Source: Candidatus Heimdallarchaeota archaeon LC_3
GTDB taxonomy: Archaea > Asgardarchaeota > Heimdallarchaeia > Hodarchaeales > LC-3
Length of the DNA stretch: 64,000 nt
Assembly: GCA_001940645.1 (NCBI GenBank)
Contig: MDVS01000117.1
Location: 1-64,000 of the forward strand
Direction of reading: 5' to 3'
Below, piece by piece: positions 9,189-58,173 of this stretch; positions within the stretch are counted from its first letter, which is position 1, and each line of letters begins with the position of its first letter. A model generated the notes under the pieces. It made no database searches and was not told the origin of the DNA. It saw only the letters and a list, made by a program, of their open reading frames with translations. Both the position numbers and the translations under genes were made by a program.

Positions 9189-12100
9189 ATGTGGTCTCCA
9201 GAGCTTAAAAAAATATCACAAATTCAATTCGGGATACTAAGTCCCGAAGAAATAAGGAAATTAGCAGTTGCACGTATATTAACACCTGATACATATAATG
9301 AAGATGGTTCTCCTGTCGAATCCGGTTTAATGGATCGAAGACTAGGAACCATAGAACCAGGAATGCGATGTAGACACTGCGGAAATACTGTTGGTGACTG
9401 CACAGGTCACTTTGGTATTATTGAACTAGCACGTCCAGTTATTCATGTAGGATATGCAAAAAGCATTATCTATAAACTGTTAAAAAGCACTTGTCGTGTT
9501 TGTGCTAGAATTTTGCTTGATGATAGCATTGCACAAAGATATCGTGACAAATTGCATGATGCACAAAAACAAGGTGAAGGAATTCTTCAAAAACTTCAAA
9601 AAGAGATTGCAAAAGAAGCAAGAAAAAAATCTAAATGCCCACACTGTCAGAGTGAGCAATTTAAAGTAAAATATGAAAAACCCACAACTTTCCATGAAGA
9701 AACCATTCAGGGACCTGTTAAACTCACTCCGACTGACATTCAAGAAAGGTTTGAACGAATTAAATCGTTAGATCTTTACTTACTAGGAATTGATACCTCA
9801 TTTTCTCGACCTGAATGGATGATCTTAACTGGATTACCAGTACCTCCAGTCTCAGTACGAGCTTCTATTACATTAGAATCTGGTATTAAAAGTGAAGATG
9901 ATCTAACTCATAAATTAGTTGATATTATTAGAATCAACAAGCGTTTAAGAGAAAATATCGAAGCAGGAGCTCCTCAACTTATAGTTGAAGATCTTTGGGA
10001 ATTATTACAATATCATGTTACTACTTATATGGATAATGAAGTTGCAGGTATTCCTCCTGCACGTCATAGATCTGGGAGAGCGCTACGTACATTAACACAG
10101 CGTCTTCGTGGAAAAGAAGGAAGATTTAGGGGAAATTTATCAGGTAAAAGAGTAGATTTCAGCGCTAGAACTGTTATTTCCCCAGATCCTAATATTTCTA
10201 TAAATGAAGTTGGAGTTCCAGAACAAATTGCGAAAATATTAACTGTACCAGAAAGAGTGACGGAATTCAATGTTGAGGAAATGAAAGAACTTGTCATGAA
10301 TGGTCCTGCAGATCATCCAGGTTCAAATTATATAATACGTGCTGATAAAAAAAGGATTGATTTACGATTCGTCTCAGATTTAAAAAGAACTGCTGAATCT
10401 TTAGATTCAGGTTTTATCGTTGAAAGGCATTTGAAAGATGGAGATATTGTGTTATTCAACAGACAACCTTCTCTCCATAGAATGTCAATTATGGCTCACG
10501 AAGTCCGAGTCATGCCAGGAAAAACATTTAGACTCCATTTATGTGTTTGTACACCTTATAATGCTGATTTTGACGGTGATGAAATGAATCTTCATATTCC
10601 TCAGTCAGAGGAAGCAAGATCAGAGACAAGAGTTTTAATGAGAGTTCAAGAACAAATATTATCTCCACGCTACGGAGGTCCTATAATTGGAGCAATTCAT
10701 GATTATATTACTGCTGCTTATCTGATGACGTGGAAGAAGACATTTTTTGCACGGGAAGAAGCTTGGCAATTACTTTTAGCGGGAAATTATGAAGAAGCCT
10801 TGCCTACACCAGCCATTGAATATCCTAAAGAACTTTGGACCGGGAAACAACTTTTCAGTTTGTTACTACCAAATGATGTTAATATTAGCTCGAGAACAAG
10901 AACTTCTCAAGGAGATCCATTAACTAGTACTGAATTTGATTCAGATGATGCTGTTGTAATCAGAGATGGAGAACTTTTAACAGGTACAATAGATCGAAAA
11001 GCTATTGGTGCAGATGAATCAGAAAGTGTATTGCATGTAGTAGTAAAAGATCATGGTAGTGATCGTGCAAGAGAGTTTATTGATTCATTAACACAGATGT
11101 TACTTAAATATCTTTCTCACTTGGGATTTTCACTTGGACTTAACACTATAAATTTTAGCGATGATGTAAAGTTAAGAATAAGTAAAGGGATTGCAAATGC
11201 AGAAAAAGAAGTTGATAATATAATCCAAAGTTACAAACAAGGACAATTACAACCGTTACCTGGAAAAACACTTCGAGAAACACTAGAAATGAAAATTATG
11301 GGTGTATTATCTAAAGCCCGTGATAAATCTGGAGAAATTGCTAGATCAAACCTTGGCCGTGATAACACTGTTGTTATAATGGCCACTACAGGAGCTAGAG
11401 GCACTCCTTTAAGTATTACTCAAATGTCTGCAGCTGTAGGACAGCAATCAATCAGAGGTGAAAGAATTTTAAGAGGGTATAGAGAGAGATCTTTGCCCCA
11501 TTTCAAAAAAGGTGATTATTCTGCTGCTGCTAGAGGATTTGTAAGATCGAATTTTAGAGAAGGTTTGAATCCACTAGAATTTTTCTTCCATGCCCAAGGT
11601 GGTCGAGAGGGATTAGTTGATACTGCTGTCAGAACGTCAACGAGTGGATATTTGCAAAGAAGATTAGTAAATGCTATGCAGGATTTACAGGTCAATTATG
11701 ACTATACAGTTAGAACTTCAGATGGAGAGATTGTGCAATTAAAGTATGGAGAAGATGGAGTAGATCCCATGAAATCCTATCATGGAAGACCGGTAGATAT
11801 ACAATCACTCATTCAAGAAGTTTTAGCTTATGTTGATGATGATATTTCTGATCCTATATCTGAAAAATATATTGCAGACAGAATATTTAGCTATTCAGAT
11901 GATGAATTACCAGATAAAATCAAGAATGATTTGTACCTAGAAGTCAAGAAAATTAATGATTTATCCAAAAATGATTTAGAAAAAATTTGTAATGGAGCTT
12001 ATGAAGCATATCAACGAGCTTTAGCAGAACCTGGTGAAGCAGTTGGTACAATAGCATCACAGTCTATAGGTGAACCAGGTACACAAATGACGTTAAAAAC

Positions 12101-13121
12101 ATTTCATTTTGCAGGAGTAGCAGAATTAAACGTTACTATTGGTCTTCCACGTTTGATCGAGATATTAGATGCACGAAAGAATCCAGCAAGTCCTTTTATG
12201 AAGATATTTCTTGAAGAAGATAAGAAAGCTGACGAAGCAAAGGCAAAAGAAGTTCTAAAAAGAATCGAATTGACCACGGTCAAAAATGTTTCACAAGCTA
12301 TTACTGTAGAAATGGGTGGTCTGGGAATAGAAATTCAACTAGACCAAAAATTGCTTAAAGATAGAGGATTAGATATATCTGTTATAGAAGAACGTTTAAA
12401 CAAGTTAAGAAAAGGAAAAGTCATTAAAATTGATGACTTAAACATTAGATACGAACCAGAAAATACCTCTTTTGATGAAATCTATAAGGTAGAAGAAAAA
12501 ATTTCAACTACTCAATTAAAAGGTATTAAAGAAATTACTAAAGTCATAATGGTAAAGGAAAAATCTGATAACGTAGATGAATGGGTATTATATGCAGAAG
12601 GTTCTAATTTATCCGCAGTATTGACCGTTCCTGGTGTAGATCCTACTAGAGTAACAACAAATAGCGTAGAAGAAATTTTAGGGACTTTAGGAGTAGAAGC
12701 TGCCAGACAAGCTATTATCAATGAAGCTCTTGGCGTTTTAAAAGATCAGGGCCTTGAGGTCGATATCCGCCATTTGATCTTGGTAGCTGATTTAATGACT
12801 CAAAACGGTGGTGTCAGGCAAATTGGACGTCACGGTATTTCTGGTGAAAAAGAAAGTGTCTTGGCTAAGGCAGGATTCGAAGTTACTGTTCGTCACTTAC
12901 TTGAATCAGCTGCTTACGGAAAACTGGATCACTTACGTGGAATCACGGAGAATGTTATAATCGGGCAGATGATTCCAGTAGGAACGGGAATGGTAGAGCT
13001 TATTATGTTCCCAGGCATCTGGGCAGAGCAATCTGATCCTGAAGCTTTAGATCAAGAATACTTTTCAGATGAAGAAGTTTCTGACGATACTGAGGATAAA
13101 GAAAAAAAAGTGGAGAATTAA
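9189..13121 (+). CDS. rpoA: DNA-directed RNA polymerase subunit A, unsplit (A' plus A'')
   Basis: This single 1,310-residue protein covers both halves of the largest RNA polymerase subunit. Most archaea encode these as two genes of about 880 and 380 residues. Near the N terminus are the zinc-binding clusters (CRHCGNTVGDCTGHFG). The catalytic NADFDGD motif, whose three Asp hold the active-site magnesium, begins at about residue 458. The A''-type segment GEAVGTIASQSIGEPGTQM begins at about residue 949. The C-terminal tail is acidic. It is followed by eL30, nusA-like and uS12 genes as in other archaea. No rpoB or rpoH lies upstream in the window, which is unusual. Confidence 0.97.
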   Translation: MWSPELKKISQIQFGILSPEEIRKLAVARILTPDTYNEDGSPVESGLMDRRLGTIEPGMRCRHCGNTVGDCTGHFGIIELARPVIHVGYAKSIIYKLLKSTCRVCARILLDDSIAQRYRDKLHDAQKQGEGILQKLQKEIAKEARKKSKCPHCQSEQFKVKYEKPTTFHEETIQGPVKLTPTDIQERFERIKSLDLYLLGIDTSFSRPEWMILTGLPVPPVSVRASITLESGIKSEDDLTHKLVDIIRINKRLRENIEAGAPQLIVEDLWELLQYHVTTYMDNEVAGIPPARHRSGRALRTLTQRLRGKEGRFRGNLSGKRVDFSARTVISPDPNISINEVGVPEQIAKILTVPERVTEFNVEEMKELVMNGPADHPGSNYIIRADKKRIDLRFVSDLKRTAESLDSGFIVERHLKDGDIVLFNRQPSLHRMSIMAHEVRVMPGKTFRLHLCVCTPYNADFDGDEMNLHIPQSEEARSETRVLMRVQEQILSPRYGGPIIGAIHDYITAAYLMTWKKTFFAREEAWQLLLAGNYEEALPTPAIEYPKELWTGKQLFSLLLPNDVNISSRTRTSQGDPLTSTEFDSDDAVVIRDGELLTGTIDRKAIGADESESVLHVVVKDHGSDRAREFIDSLTQMLLKYLSHLGFSLGLNTINFSDDVKLRISKGIANAEKEVDNIIQSYKQGQLQPLPGKTLRETLEMKIMGVLSKARDKSGEIARSNLGRDNTVVIMATTGARGTPLSITQMSAAVGQQSIRGERILRGYRERSLPHFKKGDYSAAARGFVRSNFREGLNPLEFFFHAQGGREGLVDTAVRTSTSGYLQRRLVNAMQDLQVNYDYTVRTSDGEIVQLKYGEDGVDPMKSYHGRPVDIQSLIQEVLAYVDDDISDPISEKYIADRIFSYSDDELPDKIKNDLYLEVKKINDLSKNDLEKICNGAYEAYQRALAEPGEAVGTIASQSIGEPGTQMTLKTFHFAGVAELNVTIGLPRLIEILDARKNPASPFMKIFLEEDKKADEAKAKEVLKRIELTTVKNVSQAITVEMGGLGIEIQLDQKLLKDRGLDISVIEERLNKLRKGKVIKIDDLNIRYEPENTSFDEIYKVEEKISTTQLKGIKEITKVIMVKEKSDNVDEWVLYAEGSNLSAVLTVPGVDPTRVTTNSVEEILGTLGVEAARQAIINEALGVLKDQGLEVDIRHLILVADLMTQNGGVRQIGRHGISGEKESVLAKAGFEVTVRHLLESAAYGKLDHLRGITENVIIGQMIPVGTGMVELIMFPGIWAEQSDPEALDQEYFSDEEVSDDTEDKEKKVEN

Positions 13122-34002: not shown

Positions 34003-34102
34003 CGAGCGCAGTGGGATTCGAACCCACGGCTTACAGGTACCTTTATTTTCAAACAAAGAAAATATAAAAGCCTGTTACGCTACCTGGCTGCGTCATGCGC
34101 CC
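34003..34102 (-). tRNA. tRNA-Lys (UUU) with intron in the anticodon loop
   Basis: Acceptor arms GGGCGCA and TGCGCTC pair with one wobble. The T arm is GTGGG-TTCGAAT-CCCAC. The anticodon stem ACAGG/CCTGT encloses 33 bases: a seven-base loop CTTTTAA with anticodon TTT, plus an intron of about 26 bases. The intron is placed after position 37, the usual archaeal site, and contains a TATTTTC/GAAAATA hairpin. The mature length is 74 bases. CCA is not encoded. Confidence 0.88.
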
Positions 34103-34344: not shown

Positions 34345-34842
34345 TTGACGACTAAAATTCTTATTATGGGAGCAGCTGGGCGCGATTTTCATAACTTTAA
34401 TACATTTTTTAGAGAAAATAAAAACTATCAGGTAGTGTGCTTTACAGCCACTCAAATTCCAGATATTGCAGGTAGGAATTACCCACCAGAGCTATCTGGT
34501 CCATTGTATCCCGAAGGAATTCCTATTTATGATGAAGCAGATTTAGAAGATTTAATCACTAAACATGAAATTGATCAGGTTATTTTAGCTTATAGTGACC
34601 TTCCCCATGTTCTTGTTATGCAAAAAGCTTCAAGAATATTGAAACAGACAGATTTTAGATTAATGGGATATCCTAATACGAGTATTAAATCGAAATTGCC
34701 AGTTATTTCTGTTTGTGCAGTTCGTACAGGTGCTGGAAAAAGTCAAACTACTAGAAAAATTGGTAAAATTCTTCGTGATCATGGAAAAAGGGTAGCAGTT
34801 ATCCGTCACCCTAATGGATATCCAAGAACTAACCTATTATAA
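34345..34842 (+). CDS. Truncated copy of the cyclic-2,3-diphosphoglycerate-synthetase-like gene
   Basis: The 165-residue product matches the first 155 or so residues of the 36110 gene at high identity and then ends early. It keeps the N-terminal domain (GAAGRDFHNFNTFF) and the P-loop RTGAGKSQTTRKIG but lacks the whole C-terminal two thirds. The final eight residues are unrelated to the full protein. The start is a TTG with GAGGTG upstream. An intact frame, start and binding site mean it may still be translated, but an enzyme function is unlikely. It could be a recent pseudogene. Confidence 0.75.
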   Translation: MTTKILIMGAAGRDFHNFNTFFRENKNYQVVCFTATQIPDIAGRNYPPELSGPLYPEGIPIYDEADLEDLITKHEIDQVILAYSDLPHVLVMQKASRILKQTDFRLMGYPNTSIKSKLPVISVCAVRTGAGKSQTTRKIGKILRDHGKRVAVIRHPNGYPRTNLL

Positions 34843-36015: not shown

Positions 36016-36109
36016 TTTATCTAGAAAAAAGTTCTGTATAATATGGAATATTAACAATATAATAGAACACAATTTTGACTCTAAATAAGTTATAAAGATG
36101 TTTTTTTAC

Positions 36110-37423
36110 TTGGCAATTAAAATTATTATTATGGGAGCAGCTGGGCGCGATTTTCATAACTTTAATACTTTTTTCCGAAATAACGAATCTTATCAAGTGG
36201 TATGCTTTACAGCTACGCAAATTCCTGATATAGCGGAAAGGAAATATCCACCGGAATTATCTGGACCACTGTATCCTGAAGGAATTCAAATATACGATGA
36301 AACAGAATTAATAAACTTGATTACAAAACATGAAATTGATCAGGTGGTTTTGGCTTACAGCGATCTTCCACACGTCAAGTTAATGCAAAAAGCATCAAGA
36401 ATATTGATGCATACAGATTTTAGGTTAATGGGTTACCCTAACACGAGTATTAAATCAAAATTGCCAGTTATCTCTATATGTGCTGTAAGGACAGGAGCGG
36501 GAAAAAGCCAGACAACGAGGAAGATAGGGAGGATTCTAAGAGAAAATGGGAAGAAGGTGGCCATTCTGAGGCACCCAATGCCATATGGAGATCTCTCCAA
36601 ACAGATTTGGCAACGATTTGGTGAATTAGCAGATTTAGACAAACATAAATGCACTATTGAAGAGCGTGAAGAATATGAACCCCACATTATAGAAGGAAAT
36701 CTTGTTTTTGCTGGTGTTGATTATAAAAAAATACTTGAGGAAGCTGAAAAAGAAGTAGATATTATTATATGGGATGGAGGAAATAATGATTTTTCTTTCT
36801 ACAAATCCGATTTAACCTTTACCATTGTTGATCCCTATAGACCCAACCATGAAATTACCTATTATCCTGGACAAACTAATTTAGGTCTAGCAGATGTTGT
36901 GATCGTTAATAAGGTTAATACTGCACCAAAAGAAGGAATTGAAACAGTATTGAAAAATATTCAAATTGAGAATCCTGGTGTTCACATAATCAAAGCTGAT
37001 TCTAAAATTACTGTTGATAATCCTGACTTAATTAAAGGTAAAACTGTGTTAGTTGTAGAAGATGGTCCTACCTTAACACATGGCGGTATGAAAATTGGTG
37101 CTGGGATAATTGCTGCTGAAAGTCATGGCGCAAAAGAAATAATTGATCCACGTCCCTTTGCAGTGGGATCCATTATTTCAACTTTTGAAAAGTATGACCA
37201 TCTTGATCGTGTTCTTCCAGCAATGGGCTATGGTTCTAAACAGATGCAAGAGTTACAAGAAACAATTGAGAAAGCCTCAGCTGAAGTGGTTGTAATAGGT
37301 ACTCCCATTGATTTACGAAAATTGATAGAGATAACTAAACCTTCTGTAAGAGTAAAATATGATTTAGTTGAAAAAGAAGGTGGAACAATAGAAGAGGTAT
37401 TAAAAAAGAAAGGATTTATTTGA
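36110..37423 (+). CDS. Cyclic 2,3-diphosphoglycerate synthetase-like P-loop protein
   Basis: The product (437 residues) matches the COG2403-type family, annotated as predicted GTPase or cyclic 2,3-diphosphoglycerate synthetase. The N-terminal Rossmann-like part starts MGAAGRDFHNFNTFF. The P-loop RTGAGKSQTTRKIG is near residue 130, followed by RHPMPYGDL and, later, IIWDGGNNDFSFYK and DPYRPNHE. In thermophilic methanogens the enzyme makes a thermoprotectant; in other archaea the role is unproven. I choose the TTG at 36110 because it aligns with the TTG of the truncated copy, whose ribosome-binding GAGGTG corresponds to the AAGATG here. The ATG at 36098 is the alternative. Confidence 0.85.
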   Translation: MAIKIIIMGAAGRDFHNFNTFFRNNESYQVVCFTATQIPDIAERKYPPELSGPLYPEGIQIYDETELINLITKHEIDQVVLAYSDLPHVKLMQKASRILMHTDFRLMGYPNTSIKSKLPVISICAVRTGAGKSQTTRKIGRILRENGKKVAILRHPMPYGDLSKQIWQRFGELADLDKHKCTIEEREEYEPHIIEGNLVFAGVDYKKILEEAEKEVDIIIWDGGNNDFSFYKSDLTFTIVDPYRPNHEITYYPGQTNLGLADVVIVNKVNTAPKEGIETVLKNIQIENPGVHIIKADSKITVDNPDLIKGKTVLVVEDGPTLTHGGMKIGAGIIAAESHGAKEIIDPRPFAVGSIISTFEKYDHLDRVLPAMGYGSKQMQELQETIEKASAEVVVIGTPIDLRKLIEITKPSVRVKYDLVEKEGGTIEEVLKKKGFI

Positions 37424-52566: not shown

Positions 52567-52724
52567 TTTCATCATTCTGATTTACAAGATCTAATTAAGA
52601 AAAAACTCTCTAATAATATTATGTTTATGAATCTTAATCACATTTGGTATTTGTGTATTTTAAGTATCTGTCCGTAACTATTCATTTAAATACCATTTAT
52701 ACGTTTAGGAATATTGAAAAGCAA

Positions 52725-53441
52725 ATGTTAACAAATGACGATAATGACAATAGTAGTTTTCAGAATTCTAGTGATTTTGATCAACAAACTCCATCTCAAC
52801 ATACAGATGAGCTCGGACAAAGAAATCATGATTCGTTACCGGCATCCTTTCAAAAAATTGTGTATATTCCAAAAGCAAATAATTTAGAATCGGAAATTCT
52901 ATCATTATATACTTCAAAAATACCAAACTTTGGTTATTCTTTTACTGGATTAAAAAGAAAATTAGGAAATATTCATCAACAGAGTTTAGCCAATTCTCTG
53001 GATCGTTTAATTGAAGATTCCTATCTTGTTAAAGATCAGTTTGGAAATTATTTACTGGATCCTGAAAAATCTTCAAGAAACCGATTTAAAAGCAATTTTA
53101 ATAAAAATTCAGATGTATTATGGGATGAACGGTGGTCAGGAAGACCTTTGCAACATATTTCGGTAAAAAAGATATATCAGGATTTGCACGGAAAATGGTT
53201 TGGGAAGAGTAGGTTTGTTGGAGGAGTTTATAATTCCCAAAAGAATGAAGCTCTTTTAGAATGGGTAAATACAACTAATGATGGACAATCACAGCTAAAT
53301 ATAAAATTTGATGAGGTTAGAGCAAGATTTAGAAACTTAGAATGGATTGAGCGTGATAAAGCGTTAGAAGTTTTTAACCGATCATTCACATCAAATAACA
53401 TTTTGATGATCTTTGAACCATCCCAAAAGTATAACAACTAA
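52725..53441 (+). CDS. Predicted winged-helix DNA-binding protein
   Basis: The product is about 238 residues. The first 45 are polar and probably disordered (Asn, Asp, Gln and Ser-rich). The section ESEILSLYTSKIPNFGYSF followed by QSLANSLDRLIEDSYLVKD and a short wing YLL looks like a winged helix. A second folded region contains WFGKSRFVGGVYNSQKNEALLEW, a beta-rich stretch. No family is recognised. In-frame codons extend to 52644, but the ATG at 52725 gives the natural polar start. Confidence 0.65.
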   Translation: MLTNDDNDNSSFQNSSDFDQQTPSQHTDELGQRNHDSLPASFQKIVYIPKANNLESEILSLYTSKIPNFGYSFTGLKRKLGNIHQQSLANSLDRLIEDSYLVKDQFGNYLLDPEKSSRNRFKSNFNKNSDVLWDERWSGRPLQHISVKKIYQDLHGKWFGKSRFVGGVYNSQKNEALLEWVNTTNDGQSQLNIKFDEVRARFRNLEWIERDKALEVFNRSFTSNNILMIFEPSQKYNN

Positions 53442-53704
53442 ATCAAGATTTTAAATAACAGTTTTGAGTTTGAAAATATGACATAGAACTTTTCTCTTAT
53501 TTTAATTCAAAATTTAAAGATTTTTTTCCATTTCAAATAATAAAAAACACTTTCAGCGATTTTAAAGTTATTTTAGGATTACTATTAGACTTTCCTAGAA
53601 TGAAATTATCATTTCACCAGATAACTTAGTCATTAAGTATCAAAAATCCAATATTCATCCATAACAATATTTCTTAATTATATAACAAATTTTGGTGAAT
53701 AATT

Positions 53705-54349
53705 ATGGAAAAAATGGTAGAAATGCCTAAAGATGAAAAATTATTGAAAACAGGAACCACAGGATTGGCATTACGTTATGATGGTGGAGTAATTATTGCT
53801 GCGGATAAAAGAGTCAGTGCGGGATATATTATTGGTAAAAATGCTGAAAAAATTCATTTACTAACCAACAATATTGGGATGGCAATATCAGGACTGGTAT
53901 CAGATGCTATGAGTCTTGTAGACGTCATGAAAGCAGAATTGAAACTTTATAGATTTGATAACGCTCTAGAACCTACTGTTAAAGTTGCCGCTTCATTACT
54001 TGGAGTTATTACCCACGGAGCTTATAGAAGATATTTTCCTTACTGGACTCAACTAATTGTTGGTGGTGCTGATATAACCGGTCCACATCTTTATAACATT
54101 GATCCTAGTGGAGCTGTATCTGAAGATAATTTCATGGTTATTGGAAGTGGTTCATTATTTGCATTATCCAAGCTAGATGATGGCTGGAAAGAACGATTAA
54201 GTAAAGATGACGCTAGGAGATTAACCATCCAGGCTTTGAAACTAGCTATTAGTCGTGATTTATACACTGGAGATGGATTCAATATCTTCTTCTTCACTAA
54301 AGATGGCTCAGAAAAGGAAAGTGTTAACTTAAAAACAGTGGAGGCTTAA
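53705..54349 (+). CDS. psmB1: Proteasome beta subunit, copy 1
   Basis: The product (214 residues) is a 20S proteasome catalytic subunit. A 17-residue propeptide ends in KTG before the mature Thr1 (G-TTGLALRYDGG). Asp17 lies in AADKR and the catalytic Lys is the one before IHLL, one residue short of the usual number. The conserved SGLVSDA, HLYNIDPSGAV and IGSGSLFALSKL segments are present. A GGTG motif precedes the ATG. It is the first gene of a four-gene cluster and abuts the alpha gene by two bases. Confidence 0.94.
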   Translation: MEKMVEMPKDEKLLKTGTTGLALRYDGGVIIAADKRVSAGYIIGKNAEKIHLLTNNIGMAISGLVSDAMSLVDVMKAELKLYRFDNALEPTVKVAASLLGVITHGAYRRYFPYWTQLIVGGADITGPHLYNIDPSGAVSEDNFMVIGSGSLFALSKLDDGWKERLSKDDARRLTIQALKLAISRDLYTGDGFNIFFFTKDGSEKESVNLKTVEA

Positions 54350-54351
54350 TA

Positions 54352-55017
54352 TTGATTGATACAAGAGTTCCTTATGATAAATCAACAGTAATATGGTCTC
54401 CAGATGGAGAATTAGTTCAATTAAGCTATGCAAGAAGAGCTTCTGAAAAAGGCTTATCTGCAATGGGAATTTTATTAAATGATAGCACCATTTTGCTAGC
54501 TGGAAAGACTAAAGTTGATAAATTGGTTGAAACTCAATCAAAAATAAAGCTTGTAGATGATAATCTGTATTTATTAGCTTCAGGTCTTAGCTCTGATTCG
54601 AATTTGTTGTTATCACAGGCACGAGTAATGGCTCAGCGACATACACTAGTGTATGGTGATCCTATGGGTCCTGAAGCTTTATCTAAATCTTTAGGAGACA
54701 TGATGGCCCGAGTAACATTATCTGGTGGATTACGTGCGTTTGGAACAAGCCTGATTATTGCTGGTTTTCATCCAAACAATAAGAAACCAAAAATGTTTTT
54801 CGTAGATAATGGTGGATCATATTTTTCTGCTAAAGCCTATGCCAGTGGACAGGATACTGAAAGAATAGTGTCATATTTCCGTGAACATCTAAAATCACCT
54901 CTAAGTGTTGATGAGGGTAAAAAATTGATAATAGATGCTTTGAACGCGATAGCAGCAGATCCTGAAAAGAAAGTCACCGAAGAAGATGTCGAATTTCTTG
55001 TTGTGGCATTAGATTAG
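54352..55017 (+). CDS. psmA1: Proteasome alpha subunit, copy 1
   Basis: The product (221 residues) forms the outer ring of the 20S proteasome. It has YDKSTVIWSPDGELVQLSYARRASEKG, the gate region in which the usual YDR is YDK, then SGLSSDSNLLLSQARVMAQ and SGGLRAFGTSLIIAGF. The usual N-terminal extension before YDR is shorter than in typical archaeal alpha subunits. The start is TTG with GGAGG upstream. It is not a catalytic subunit: it gates access and binds ATPase regulators. Confidence 0.93.
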   Translation: MIDTRVPYDKSTVIWSPDGELVQLSYARRASEKGLSAMGILLNDSTILLAGKTKVDKLVETQSKIKLVDDNLYLLASGLSSDSNLLLSQARVMAQRHTLVYGDPMGPEALSKSLGDMMARVTLSGGLRAFGTSLIIAGFHPNNKKPKMFFVDNGGSYFSAKAYASGQDTERIVSYFREHLKSPLSVDEGKKLIIDALNAIAADPEKKVTEEDVEFLVVALD

Positions 55018-55030
55018 TGAGGAAATTAAA

Positions 55031-55663
55031 ATGATACAACTTTCACAAGATGATTTCTTGAAAACAGGAACAACAGGGCTTGCTATCAAATTCAAGAACG
55101 GAATAATAATTGCTGCCGATAAACGTGTGTCAGGTAGTTATGTTGTTAAAAAAGACTTTGATAAAATTCATATGTTAAACAAAACAATAGGAATGGCTAT
55201 ATCTGGATTAGTTTCTGATGCTATGAGTTTGGTAGATGTTATGAGAGCTGAACTACAATTATATGAATATGATAATGGTGTAGAGCCCTCAGTTAAAACA
55301 GCTGCTAAATTATTAGGAGTAATCTGTCATTCAAGTTATAGAAGTATGCAATTTTATTGGGTTCAGCTGATATGTGGTGGTGTAGATGATTTAGGGGGTC
55401 ATCTTTACAACATTGATCCCAGTGGTGCTGTTTCAGAGGATGATTACATGGTTATTGGTAGTGGATCATTATTTGCATTATCCAAGCTCGAAGACAGTTG
55501 GAAAGAAGGATTAAACAAAGAAGAAGCTGTAGCACTAGCTAAACAAGCGCTTAAATTAGCTATTAGCAGAGATCTATATACAGGTGATGGTATGGATTTC
55601 TATATTATTACTAAAGACGGGTTAGAACATAAAGTCGTCAAATTAATGGAAACCGAGGTATAA
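55031..55663 (+). CDS. psmB2: Proteasome beta subunit, copy 2
   Basis: The product (210 residues) again has a propeptide ending in KTG before the mature TTGLAIKFKNG. Asp17 is in AADKR and the catalytic Lys lies before IHML. It is about 60-70% like copy 1 by eye, with the same SGLVSDAMSLVDVM and IDPSGAVSEDDYMVIGSGS segments, but differs throughout in surface residues. A GAGG site precedes the ATG. Both copies look catalytically able. It ends three bases before the next alpha gene. Confidence 0.94.
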   Translation: MIQLSQDDFLKTGTTGLAIKFKNGIIIAADKRVSGSYVVKKDFDKIHMLNKTIGMAISGLVSDAMSLVDVMRAELQLYEYDNGVEPSVKTAAKLLGVICHSSYRSMQFYWVQLICGGVDDLGGHLYNIDPSGAVSEDDYMVIGSGSLFALSKLEDSWKEGLNKEEAVALAKQALKLAISRDLYTGDGMDFYIITKDGLEHKVVKLMETEV

Positions 55664-55666
55664 ACA

Positions 55667-56332
55667 ATGATGGATAATCGAATACCATACGATAAAGCTG
55701 CAACCATTTGGTCTCCTGACGGAGAATTGGTCCAATTAAGTTATGCTCGAAGGGCAACTGAAAGAGGTCTTCCAGGTGTAGCATTAATACTAAATGATAA
55801 AGAAATTTTATTGGCTGCAAAAATCAAAATAGATTCACTTATAGAAGCACCTTCTAAAGTTAAAAGCGTTGATGAAAATATGTATATGCTAGCTTCAGGG
55901 TTAAGTTCAGATTCCAATTTACTTCTTGTCCAAGCAAGATATATGGCTCAAAATCATAAATTAGTTTATGGAGAGCGAATCAGTCCCTATGGGTTAACCA
56001 AAAAGATTGGCTCGCTACTGTCAGAAGTTACCATGCAGGGTGGTTTGCGTGTATTTGGAGCGAGTTTAATCATGGCAGGATTTACACCTTATGAAAAGAA
56101 ACCAGAAGTATACTTCTTAGACAATGGAGGATCGTTCTTTTCAGCTAAAGCATATGCAACGGGGCAAGATCAAGATAAAATAATTAGCTACTTCCGTGAA
56201 CACTATAATAGCCCAATTTCAGAAGATGGGGCCAAAAGATTAGTATTGGATGCAATAAACGCAAGTGTTAGTGATCCAACAAAGAAAATCGAAGAAAAAG
56301 ATCTGGAATTTATGAAAATAAGTGCAAACTAA
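55667..56332 (+). CDS. psmA2: Proteasome alpha subunit, copy 2
   Basis: The product (221 residues) has the same length and layout as copy 1: IPYDKAATIWSPDGELVQL, SGLSSDSNLLLVQARYMAQ and MQGGLRVFGASLIMAGF. Sequence differences are spread along the protein. A GAGGT motif lies upstream of the ATG. Copy 2 alpha follows copy 2 beta, so each beta has its own alpha. Whether the two pairs make separate particles or mixed rings cannot be told from the sequence. Confidence 0.93.
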   Translation: MMDNRIPYDKAATIWSPDGELVQLSYARRATERGLPGVALILNDKEILLAAKIKIDSLIEAPSKVKSVDENMYMLASGLSSDSNLLLVQARYMAQNHKLVYGERISPYGLTKKIGSLLSEVTMQGGLRVFGASLIMAGFTPYEKKPEVYFLDNGGSFFSAKAYATGQDQDKIISYFREHYNSPISEDGAKRLVLDAINASVSDPTKKIEEKDLEFMKISAN

Positions 56333-56370: not shown

Positions 56371-56379
56371 TTTTTTTTT
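56371..56379 (+). terminator. Poly-T tract after the proteasome cluster
   Basis: Nine T in a row, 38 bases after the last alpha gene, on the sense strand. It fits an archaeal U-tract terminator for the four-gene transcript. Confidence 0.45.
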
Positions 56380-58072: not shown

Positions 58073-58173
58073 GCTCCGATAGTGTAGTCCGGTCAAAGAT
58101 GTCTTACAAACGACTCGACAAAGCATTCGGGCCTTTCGAGTCCGCTACCCGGGTTCAAATCCCGGTCGGAGCA
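58073..58173 (+). tRNA. tRNA-Glu (UUC) with intron in the D-arm region
   Basis: Acceptor GCTCCGA/TCGGAGC and T arm CCGGG-TTCAAAT-CCCGG pair fully. Anticodon stem CGGGC/GTCCG holds loop CTTTCGA, giving anticodon TTC. Upstream, GTGT-AGTCCGGTCAAA is followed by 25 extra bases before GCAT, which completes the D stem. The repeat CAAAG flanks the extra bases, so the exact edges are ambiguous by a few bases. Removing 25 bases gives a 76-base tRNA. The intron lies near position 21/22, an unusual site. Confidence 0.8.

Follow-up and report, generated by a model that had tools for sequence, protein, structure and literature searches.

Archaea with multiple 20S proteasome alpha or beta subunits are already known (PMC13022661), and 22 new homologues have been described (PMC8665760). 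Haloferax volcanii builds 20S particles that differ in subunit make-up, using alpha1, alpha2 and beta (PMC2910475). Rhodococcus erythropolis has two alphas and two active betas (PMC12650242), and the sharing of particles by its subunits is called unclear in one account (PMC13022661). In a study of Thermoplasma acidophilum mutants (PMC10349882), E25A raises basal activity and is not stimulated by PAN or PA26; the back-loop deletion deltaI59 gives slightly higher activity, again with no PAN or PA26 stimulation; I12A is about 3-fold active, with PAN adding almost twofold; and I12T is about 6-fold active, with no gain from PAN. As described in a second study, E25 pairs with R28 in the closed form and with R20 in the open V24Y mutant, and the Hb residue is the reported trigger of gate opening (PMC12352868). 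Residues T124 and A154 border the Hb pocket of Thermoplasma (PMC10349882, PMC12352868).

In the 64,000-nucleotide stretch of DNA that we analysed (the window), four intact proteasome reading frames occupy positions 53705-56332 of the forward strand in the order beta1-alpha1-beta2-alpha2, with gaps of 2, 13 and 3 bases, just as the original prediction had it (Table 1). The alpha1, beta2 and alpha2 starts each have GGAGG or GAGG 7-8 bases upstream (for alpha1, GGAGG at 54340-54344). Upstream of beta1, TATATAA was the single match among three TATA-like patterns tried on 110 bases around the start, and the box at 53679 is the probable promoter of a four-gene operon. Because one such box precedes beta1 and the gaps are of 2-13 bases, a single transcript for all four genes appears to be favoured. 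At a guess, the gene upstream of the box may encode a DNA-binding regulator.

Table 1. Features of the four-gene proteasome locus, in window coordinates.
Feature	Position	Strand	Remarks
Upstream gene	52644..53441	+	no Pfam match; relatives near the beta-alpha pair in 14/30 related loci, several of which end early at contig ends
TATA-like box TATATAA upstream of beta1	53679..53685	+	pattern match; putative promoter
beta1	53705..54349	+	214 aa; 17-residue propeptide, then Thr1; PF00227 E 2.5e-50
alpha1	54352..55017	+	221 aa; TTG start; alpha'-type; PF00227 E 9.1e-32
beta2	55031..55663	+	210 aa; 13-residue propeptide, then Thr1; PF00227 E 9.8e-56
alpha2	55667..56332	+	221 aa; alpha'-type; PF00227 E 6.5e-28
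Nine-T run past alpha2	56371..56379	+	possible terminator

All four products have the features of 20S subunits. Both betas combine PF00227 and the Ntn fold with the catalytic residues: Gly-1, Thr1, Asp17 and the K33-equivalent are retained, as had been claimed, along with the S129- and D166-equivalents. The K33-equivalent lies at position 32 in both, the loop being shorter by one residue, and the S169-equivalent is Thr in both, as in 22/23 betas compared. Both alphas carry PF00227, Y8/D9/P17/Y26, K66, G80 and the N-terminal signature PF10584, with alpha2 at 28.0 bits and alpha1, at 25.9, just below the cut-off of 27.7. For the AlphaFold models of beta2 (pLDDT 87.1) and alpha2 (pLDDT 88.3), all 50 matches listed in each case were solved 20S proteasome chains. 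Neither kind reaches its NCBIfam archaeal equivalog cut-off, the alphas scoring 158.9 and 141.1 against 287.35 (TIGR03633) and the betas 176.2 and 183.8 against 224 (TIGR03634).

By its sequence, the window comes from an Asgard archaeon close to the Hodarchaeota/Heimdallarchaeota genomes. The window RpoA (one 1310-aa reading frame) is 68-69% identical to those of nine phylum genomes over near full length, with the next full-length match at 60%; partial matches stand at 76% (G008), 74% (G003), 69% (G054) and 65% (G011). The two window alphas are placed by phylogeny in a divergent subfamily, which we named alpha' in this analysis. Its clade unites them with the operonic alphas of 13 genomes (G001-G012 and G054) and 26 database rows (41 rows, SH-aLRT 100). 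In a search of 227 phylum genomes with an alpha' profile, 13 genomes matched at 1.7e-86 or better and the next at 7.5e-48. Scanning with alpha2 alone as query gave no matches in these genomes, which the alignment query did find. Each of the 13 has one match at that level in the score-ordered list (genomes may be incomplete), and the tandem unit was therefore seen in none of them. The original suggestion to look for the four-gene unit in related genomes thus bore fruit in other contigs (see below) and drew a blank among the 13 alpha' genomes.

Both window alphas have E20, a residue other than Glu at position 25, L24, W15, a short back-loop and no C-terminal helix; the AlphaFold model, available for alpha2 only, ends at a strand without that helix. 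Across the subfamily, R20 and E25 occur in 0/41 rows, compared with 66/66 and 65/66 other Asgard alphas. Residue 20 is Glu throughout (41/41), and residue 25 is Ser in 37/41, with Leu, Asp, Gly and Thr once each. Among 119 matches from the alpha2 search, Glu25 was absent from all 115 with a readable motif. The Asp25 of G054 is a mild change. V24 is replaced by Leu and F15 by Trp in 41/41 rows. The back-loop, from position 50 to K66, spans 15 residues in 40/41 rows and 17 in one, compared with 18 in 13/13 canonical alphas, and C-terminal tails measure 8-17 residues rather than the canonical 26-36, one alpha' row being truncated. At residues 12-13, alpha1 has T12-V13 and alpha2 has A12-T13. With conserved columns defined as at least 90% conserved among the 66 other Asgard alphas, and loss as retention in < 10% of alpha' rows, alpha' loses 5/35: R20, E25 and alpha2 positions 84, 123 and 153. 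We take positions 123 and 153 to adjoin the equivalents of Thermoplasma T124 and A154.

Because alpha' is changed where T. acidophilum mutants are leaky and PAN-deaf, we infer that alpha' rings would have a relaxed gate and a weak or absent PAN response. Activator docking may nevertheless persist, since Y8, D9, P17, Y26, K66, G80 and L81 are retained in 41/41 rows. The short back-loop by itself need not abolish the PAN response, since it is also found in 17/17 other operonic alphas, from genomes where our searches found one alpha only. Residue 12 is likewise altered in those 17 and in canonical alphas (Ser in 11/13).

Each of the 13 alpha' genomes encodes a single full beta and, elsewhere, an additional alpha of canonical type. 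One of them, G011, has an additional 41-position fragment. SBDS is a usual neighbour of the archaeal alpha gene. It follows the canonical alpha at L023, the sole locus read for neighbours, where the alpha itself scores 288.9, just above the TIGR03633 cut-off. The idea that Hodarchaeota-type genomes encode another beta at their second PF00227 locus was rejected, as that locus scores as an alpha and lies beside SBDS in L023. In G011 and G054 the second alpha is on a long branch. Loss of E25 and R20 looks like one event, so that its association with a second alpha amounts to n=1; a Leu25 alpha also occurs in G171 (L140), a genome where no second alpha was found. Judging from these relatives, the window lineage would have a canonical alpha and PAN as well.

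We propose that a Heimdallarchaeia-type beta-alpha' operon, duplicated in tandem long ago, gave rise to an enlarged, relaxed-gate, mixed 20S particle that exists beside a conventional 20S, an explanation to which we give about an even chance. The operonic alpha would already have been alpha' before the beta-alpha operon doubled. One transcript would then supply beta1, alpha1, beta2 and alpha2 in matched amounts, and the paralogues would co-assemble into mixed 20S rings or subtypes combining two slightly different active sites. The alpha' rings, having a relaxed gate, would show little or no response to PAN, and the canonical alpha encoded elsewhere would form a conventional PAN-gated particle on a shared beta, to which ATP-dependent work would be left. 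The analysis directly shows the gene content of the locus, its age, its occurrence in other contigs, the intact catalytic residues, the alpha' changes, the lineage-wide difference at beta residue 31 and the canonical alpha in 13/13 genomes; the function is inferred.

One difference bearing on beta specialisation lies at residue 31. We take this to be an S1-pocket position, as in other 20S betas. Its equivalent is Ala in beta1 and Phe in beta2, and the pocket equivalents 20, 35, 45, 49 and 53 are identical between the two. Under a typing of betas that was set after the trees were known, and partly by contig position because unit-1 monophyly was not recovered and the order of beta groups was left open, residue 31 is Phe or Ile in 10/10 beta2-type rows and Ala in 7/8 beta1-type rows (Glu in 1/8). 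It is Ala or Val in 15/15 rows of an apparent single-pair lineage, recognised from longest-contig sizes, with several contigs short enough to have missed a second pair, and Ala, Gly, Thr or Val in the remaining 26/26 rows with a letter. The two types are also wholly different at positions 86, 89, 92, 94, 107 and 185. No beta site was fixed for one residue per type (4 and 5 rows), and six alpha sites were fixed differently between types (6 and 4 rows). The consistent difference at residue 31 favours two kinds of active site, whether these sit together in mixed rings or are split between two particles. The original suggestion of two specialised particles or mixed rings thereby gains some support as regards specialisation of the betas.

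The strongest alternative is that alpha1-beta1 and alpha2-beta2 form two separate homotypic 20S particles with distinct jobs, which we consider somewhat unlikely. Each unit is complete, intact and retained over a long divergence, as two particles would lead one to expect, and the stem of alpha2 in the alpha tree (0.40) is longer than that of alpha1 (0.086). The six differently fixed alpha sites, the bulky residue 31 of beta2-type subunits and the differences at 92 and 94 point the same way. However, the four genes lie in a single operon with gaps of 2-13 bases, and at no beta site does each unit type have its own invariant residue. PAN is moreover single in 18/20 relatives, with two matches in G063 and none in G164, which gives no sign of two ATPase routes.

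The PAN C-termini of G001-G006 and G008-G010 all (9/9) have the form E/Q-Y-X (EYL, EYT or QYL), in which the position before Tyr is not hydrophobic and the hydrophobic Hb residue is missing. Those of the alpha' genomes G011 and G054 are FFT and VFT, and those of six genomes without a second alpha are FFV (twice), VFV, GFI, FYT and FFS. A more far-reaching reading, unlikely in our judgement, is that two kinds of 20S share one beta, a PAN-gated particle with canonical alpha and an open-gate, ATPase-independent particle with alpha', and that PAN has been co-adapting. In the window lineage, duplication of the open particle would then have produced a four-gene core having two types of active site, and mixed rings like those of eukaryotes would have been approached independently.

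The betas of the two units are identical at 135/210 positions and their alphas at 133/221 (60-64%). Synonymous sites between the units are saturated: identity at fourfold sites was 22/52 in one comparison, where 34% is expected from base composition, and 14/45 in the other, where 36% is expected. Agreement near the level of base composition implies that the copies are old and have been kept at the protein level. In a check for gene conversion, beta1 and beta2 shared one identical 23-base run (shuffle fraction 0.0495), and the same check gave no sign of conversion between alpha1 and alpha2.

The phylogenies agree with an early doubling. A concatenated tree of 17 hand-chosen contig rows (14 pairs and 3 single genes) and 8 loci recovered a unit 2 clade (96/99) and units 1 and 2 jointly (94/90); the apparent single-pair lineage (100/99) branched outside them. 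Topology tests rejected a duplication confined to the window (p-AU 3e-8). They also rejected trees that joined the apparent single-pair lineage to unit 1 (p 0.018) or to unit 2 (p 0.017). Unit-1 monophyly was not recovered, and a tree constrained to hold it had p-AU 0.365. Wider trees, of 48 alphas and 43 betas chosen by id plus the loci, supported alpha1 types (11 rows, 88/81), alpha2 types (8 rows, 97/95) and their joint clade (19 rows, 92/84) and left the order of beta groups open. Given the co-occurrence on contigs described below, the topology tests and the saturated synonymous sites, the beta-alpha unit was most likely doubled once, long ago, with both copies retained.

The same data bear on whether the two units are redundant, one able to replace the other, and have been retained for dosage or through near-neutral drift. 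Identical catalytic residues, mostly identical pocket positions and few fixed differences are what such redundancy would produce. We nonetheless regard it as decidedly unlikely, as saturated synonymous sites, 60-64% protein identity and presence on six contigs point to both copies being under selection, and the difference at residue 31 is consistent.

The original prediction that a complete beta-alpha unit was duplicated in tandem, each part diverged yet intact, is borne out beyond the window. We assigned database proteins to a shared contig by the equal size of the longest contig, working from the proteins rather than the DNA of those contigs. On this basis, an 8211-bp MAG contig has one protein of each of the four kinds (P0003, P0071, P0015 and P0065), identical to the window proteins at 171/214, 184/221, 147/210 and 180/221 positions. 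Contigs of 2012, 3188, 2789 and 3564 bp each have three of the four kinds. The proteins of the 8211-bp contig bear the source label Candidatus Thorarchaeota. An assembly artefact, named at the outset as what could overturn the prediction, is thus contradicted by one contig with four kinds and four with three. A metagenomic origin is likely for this DNA, which speaks for an artefact, chimera or contamination, yet the recurrence of the gene set, paralogues only 60-64% identical and a flanking gene common to related genomes leave this alternative hardly any probability.

Gene order in the host's relatives completes the picture. A beta lies directly before an alpha on the same strand in 30/30 loci (L001-L012 and L083-L100), of which L083-L100 are 18 non-random loci hand-picked from the best alpha matches, some with a neighbouring beta, their class being taken from trees. 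The same order occurs in L158 (G080), and alpha precedes beta in G165 and G171 (loci L138 and L140). Since the order is constant in the 30 loci and relatives of the upstream gene recur in 14 of them, the window locus appears to be an ancestral beta-alpha locus with an added second pair. Trees of the four proteins, suggested originally and built here without actinobacterial or eukaryotic rows (26 of 119 alpha matches and 26 of 62 beta matches in the single-protein trees), placed all four among Asgard rows. Actinobacterial transfer, which the likeness to prcB-prcA order might suggest, is barely credible: beta-alpha order is normal in the host's kin, the betas score only 58.7 and 77.4 bits against the actinobacterial PrcB cut-off of 191.9 (TIGR03690), the alphas gave no match to PrcA (TIGR03691) at E 0.001, the four proteins fall among Asgard rows in those trees, and the noted likeness is thus coincidental.

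Asgard archaea are the archaeal group closest to eukaryotes, and the route from a proteasome with one alpha and one beta to the eukaryotic 7+7 core is an open question. With its duplicated beta-alpha operon, pocket-divergent betas and gate-altered alpha, this Heimdallarchaeia-type lineage offers a natural setting for studying heteromeric assembly and a division of labour in gating, and few proteins are needed. A search of open-licence papers found no account of an alpha' subfamily or of a tandem beta-alpha-beta-alpha unit. Multiple archaeal alphas and betas being known already, what appears to be new is the tandem unit, the gate-altered alpha' and the pocket change in beta2, the last two being the more interesting.

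Relative to known systems, the E25A, deltaI59 and I12 mutants of T. acidophilum are laboratory changes at positions naturally changed in alpha'. They are single changes in a conventional alpha, whereas alpha' combines several of them with E20, L24 and W15. Like the window lineage, H. volcanii is an archaeon with two alpha types; it is not known to have a tandem beta-alpha-beta-alpha unit. Here, by comparison, the operonic alphas are without E25 and R20 and the whole pair is duplicated. The alpha/beta pairs of R. erythropolis lie at separate loci and are actinobacterial, and the Asgard unit arose by a separate duplication of its own. The direct relatives are the beta-alpha' pairs of Hodarchaeota/Heimdallarchaeota genomes, which share the gene order, the alpha' subfamily and, in most loci, a related upstream gene. 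Those 13 genomes have one alpha' each, whereas in the window lineage the pair is present in duplicate.

The proteasomal ATPase (PAN) ended in EYL, EYT or QYL in nine genomes carrying the divergent alpha' subfamily (loci L183, L189-L191 and L195-L199). In all nine, the Hb position of the C-terminal HbYX motif, where a hydrophobic residue is reported to trigger gate opening, was occupied by a polar residue. Unlike these nine, the alpha' genomes G011 and G054 had PANs with a hydrophobic Hb residue. This residue was hydrophobic or Gly in the PANs of six genomes where no second alpha was found.

At the alpha gate residue, position 25, the alpha of locus L140 (genome G171) had Leu, and no second alpha was found in G171, making this alpha an exception to the E25 pattern.

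A beta-alpha-beta-like triple was present at L100:2346-4381 in G164, an Asgard genome of 0.9 Mb; its third gene is strongly diverged and, as judged by eye, lacks several catalytic residues. Two adjoining alpha genes formed a tandem at L107 in G016, a further Asgard genome, which has a third alpha at a separate locus (L109).

Additional features of the window
Feature	Position	Strand	Remark
RNA polymerase subunit A	9189-13121		single ORF, 1310 aa
tRNA, ~100 bases	34003-34102	-	Rfam match; not found by ARAGORN
165-aa ORF	34345-34842
441-aa neighbour	36098-37423
tRNA, ~100 bases	58073-58173	+	Rfam match; not found by ARAGORN

Both tRNAs likely contain an intron or a long variable arm. The 165-aa ORF is apparently a truncated copy of its 441-aa neighbour, the start of which matches it with 83% identity over 159 residues. 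RNA polymerase subunit A, encoded by one ORF in the window, is split between two frames of 900 and 401 codons at the related locus L163.
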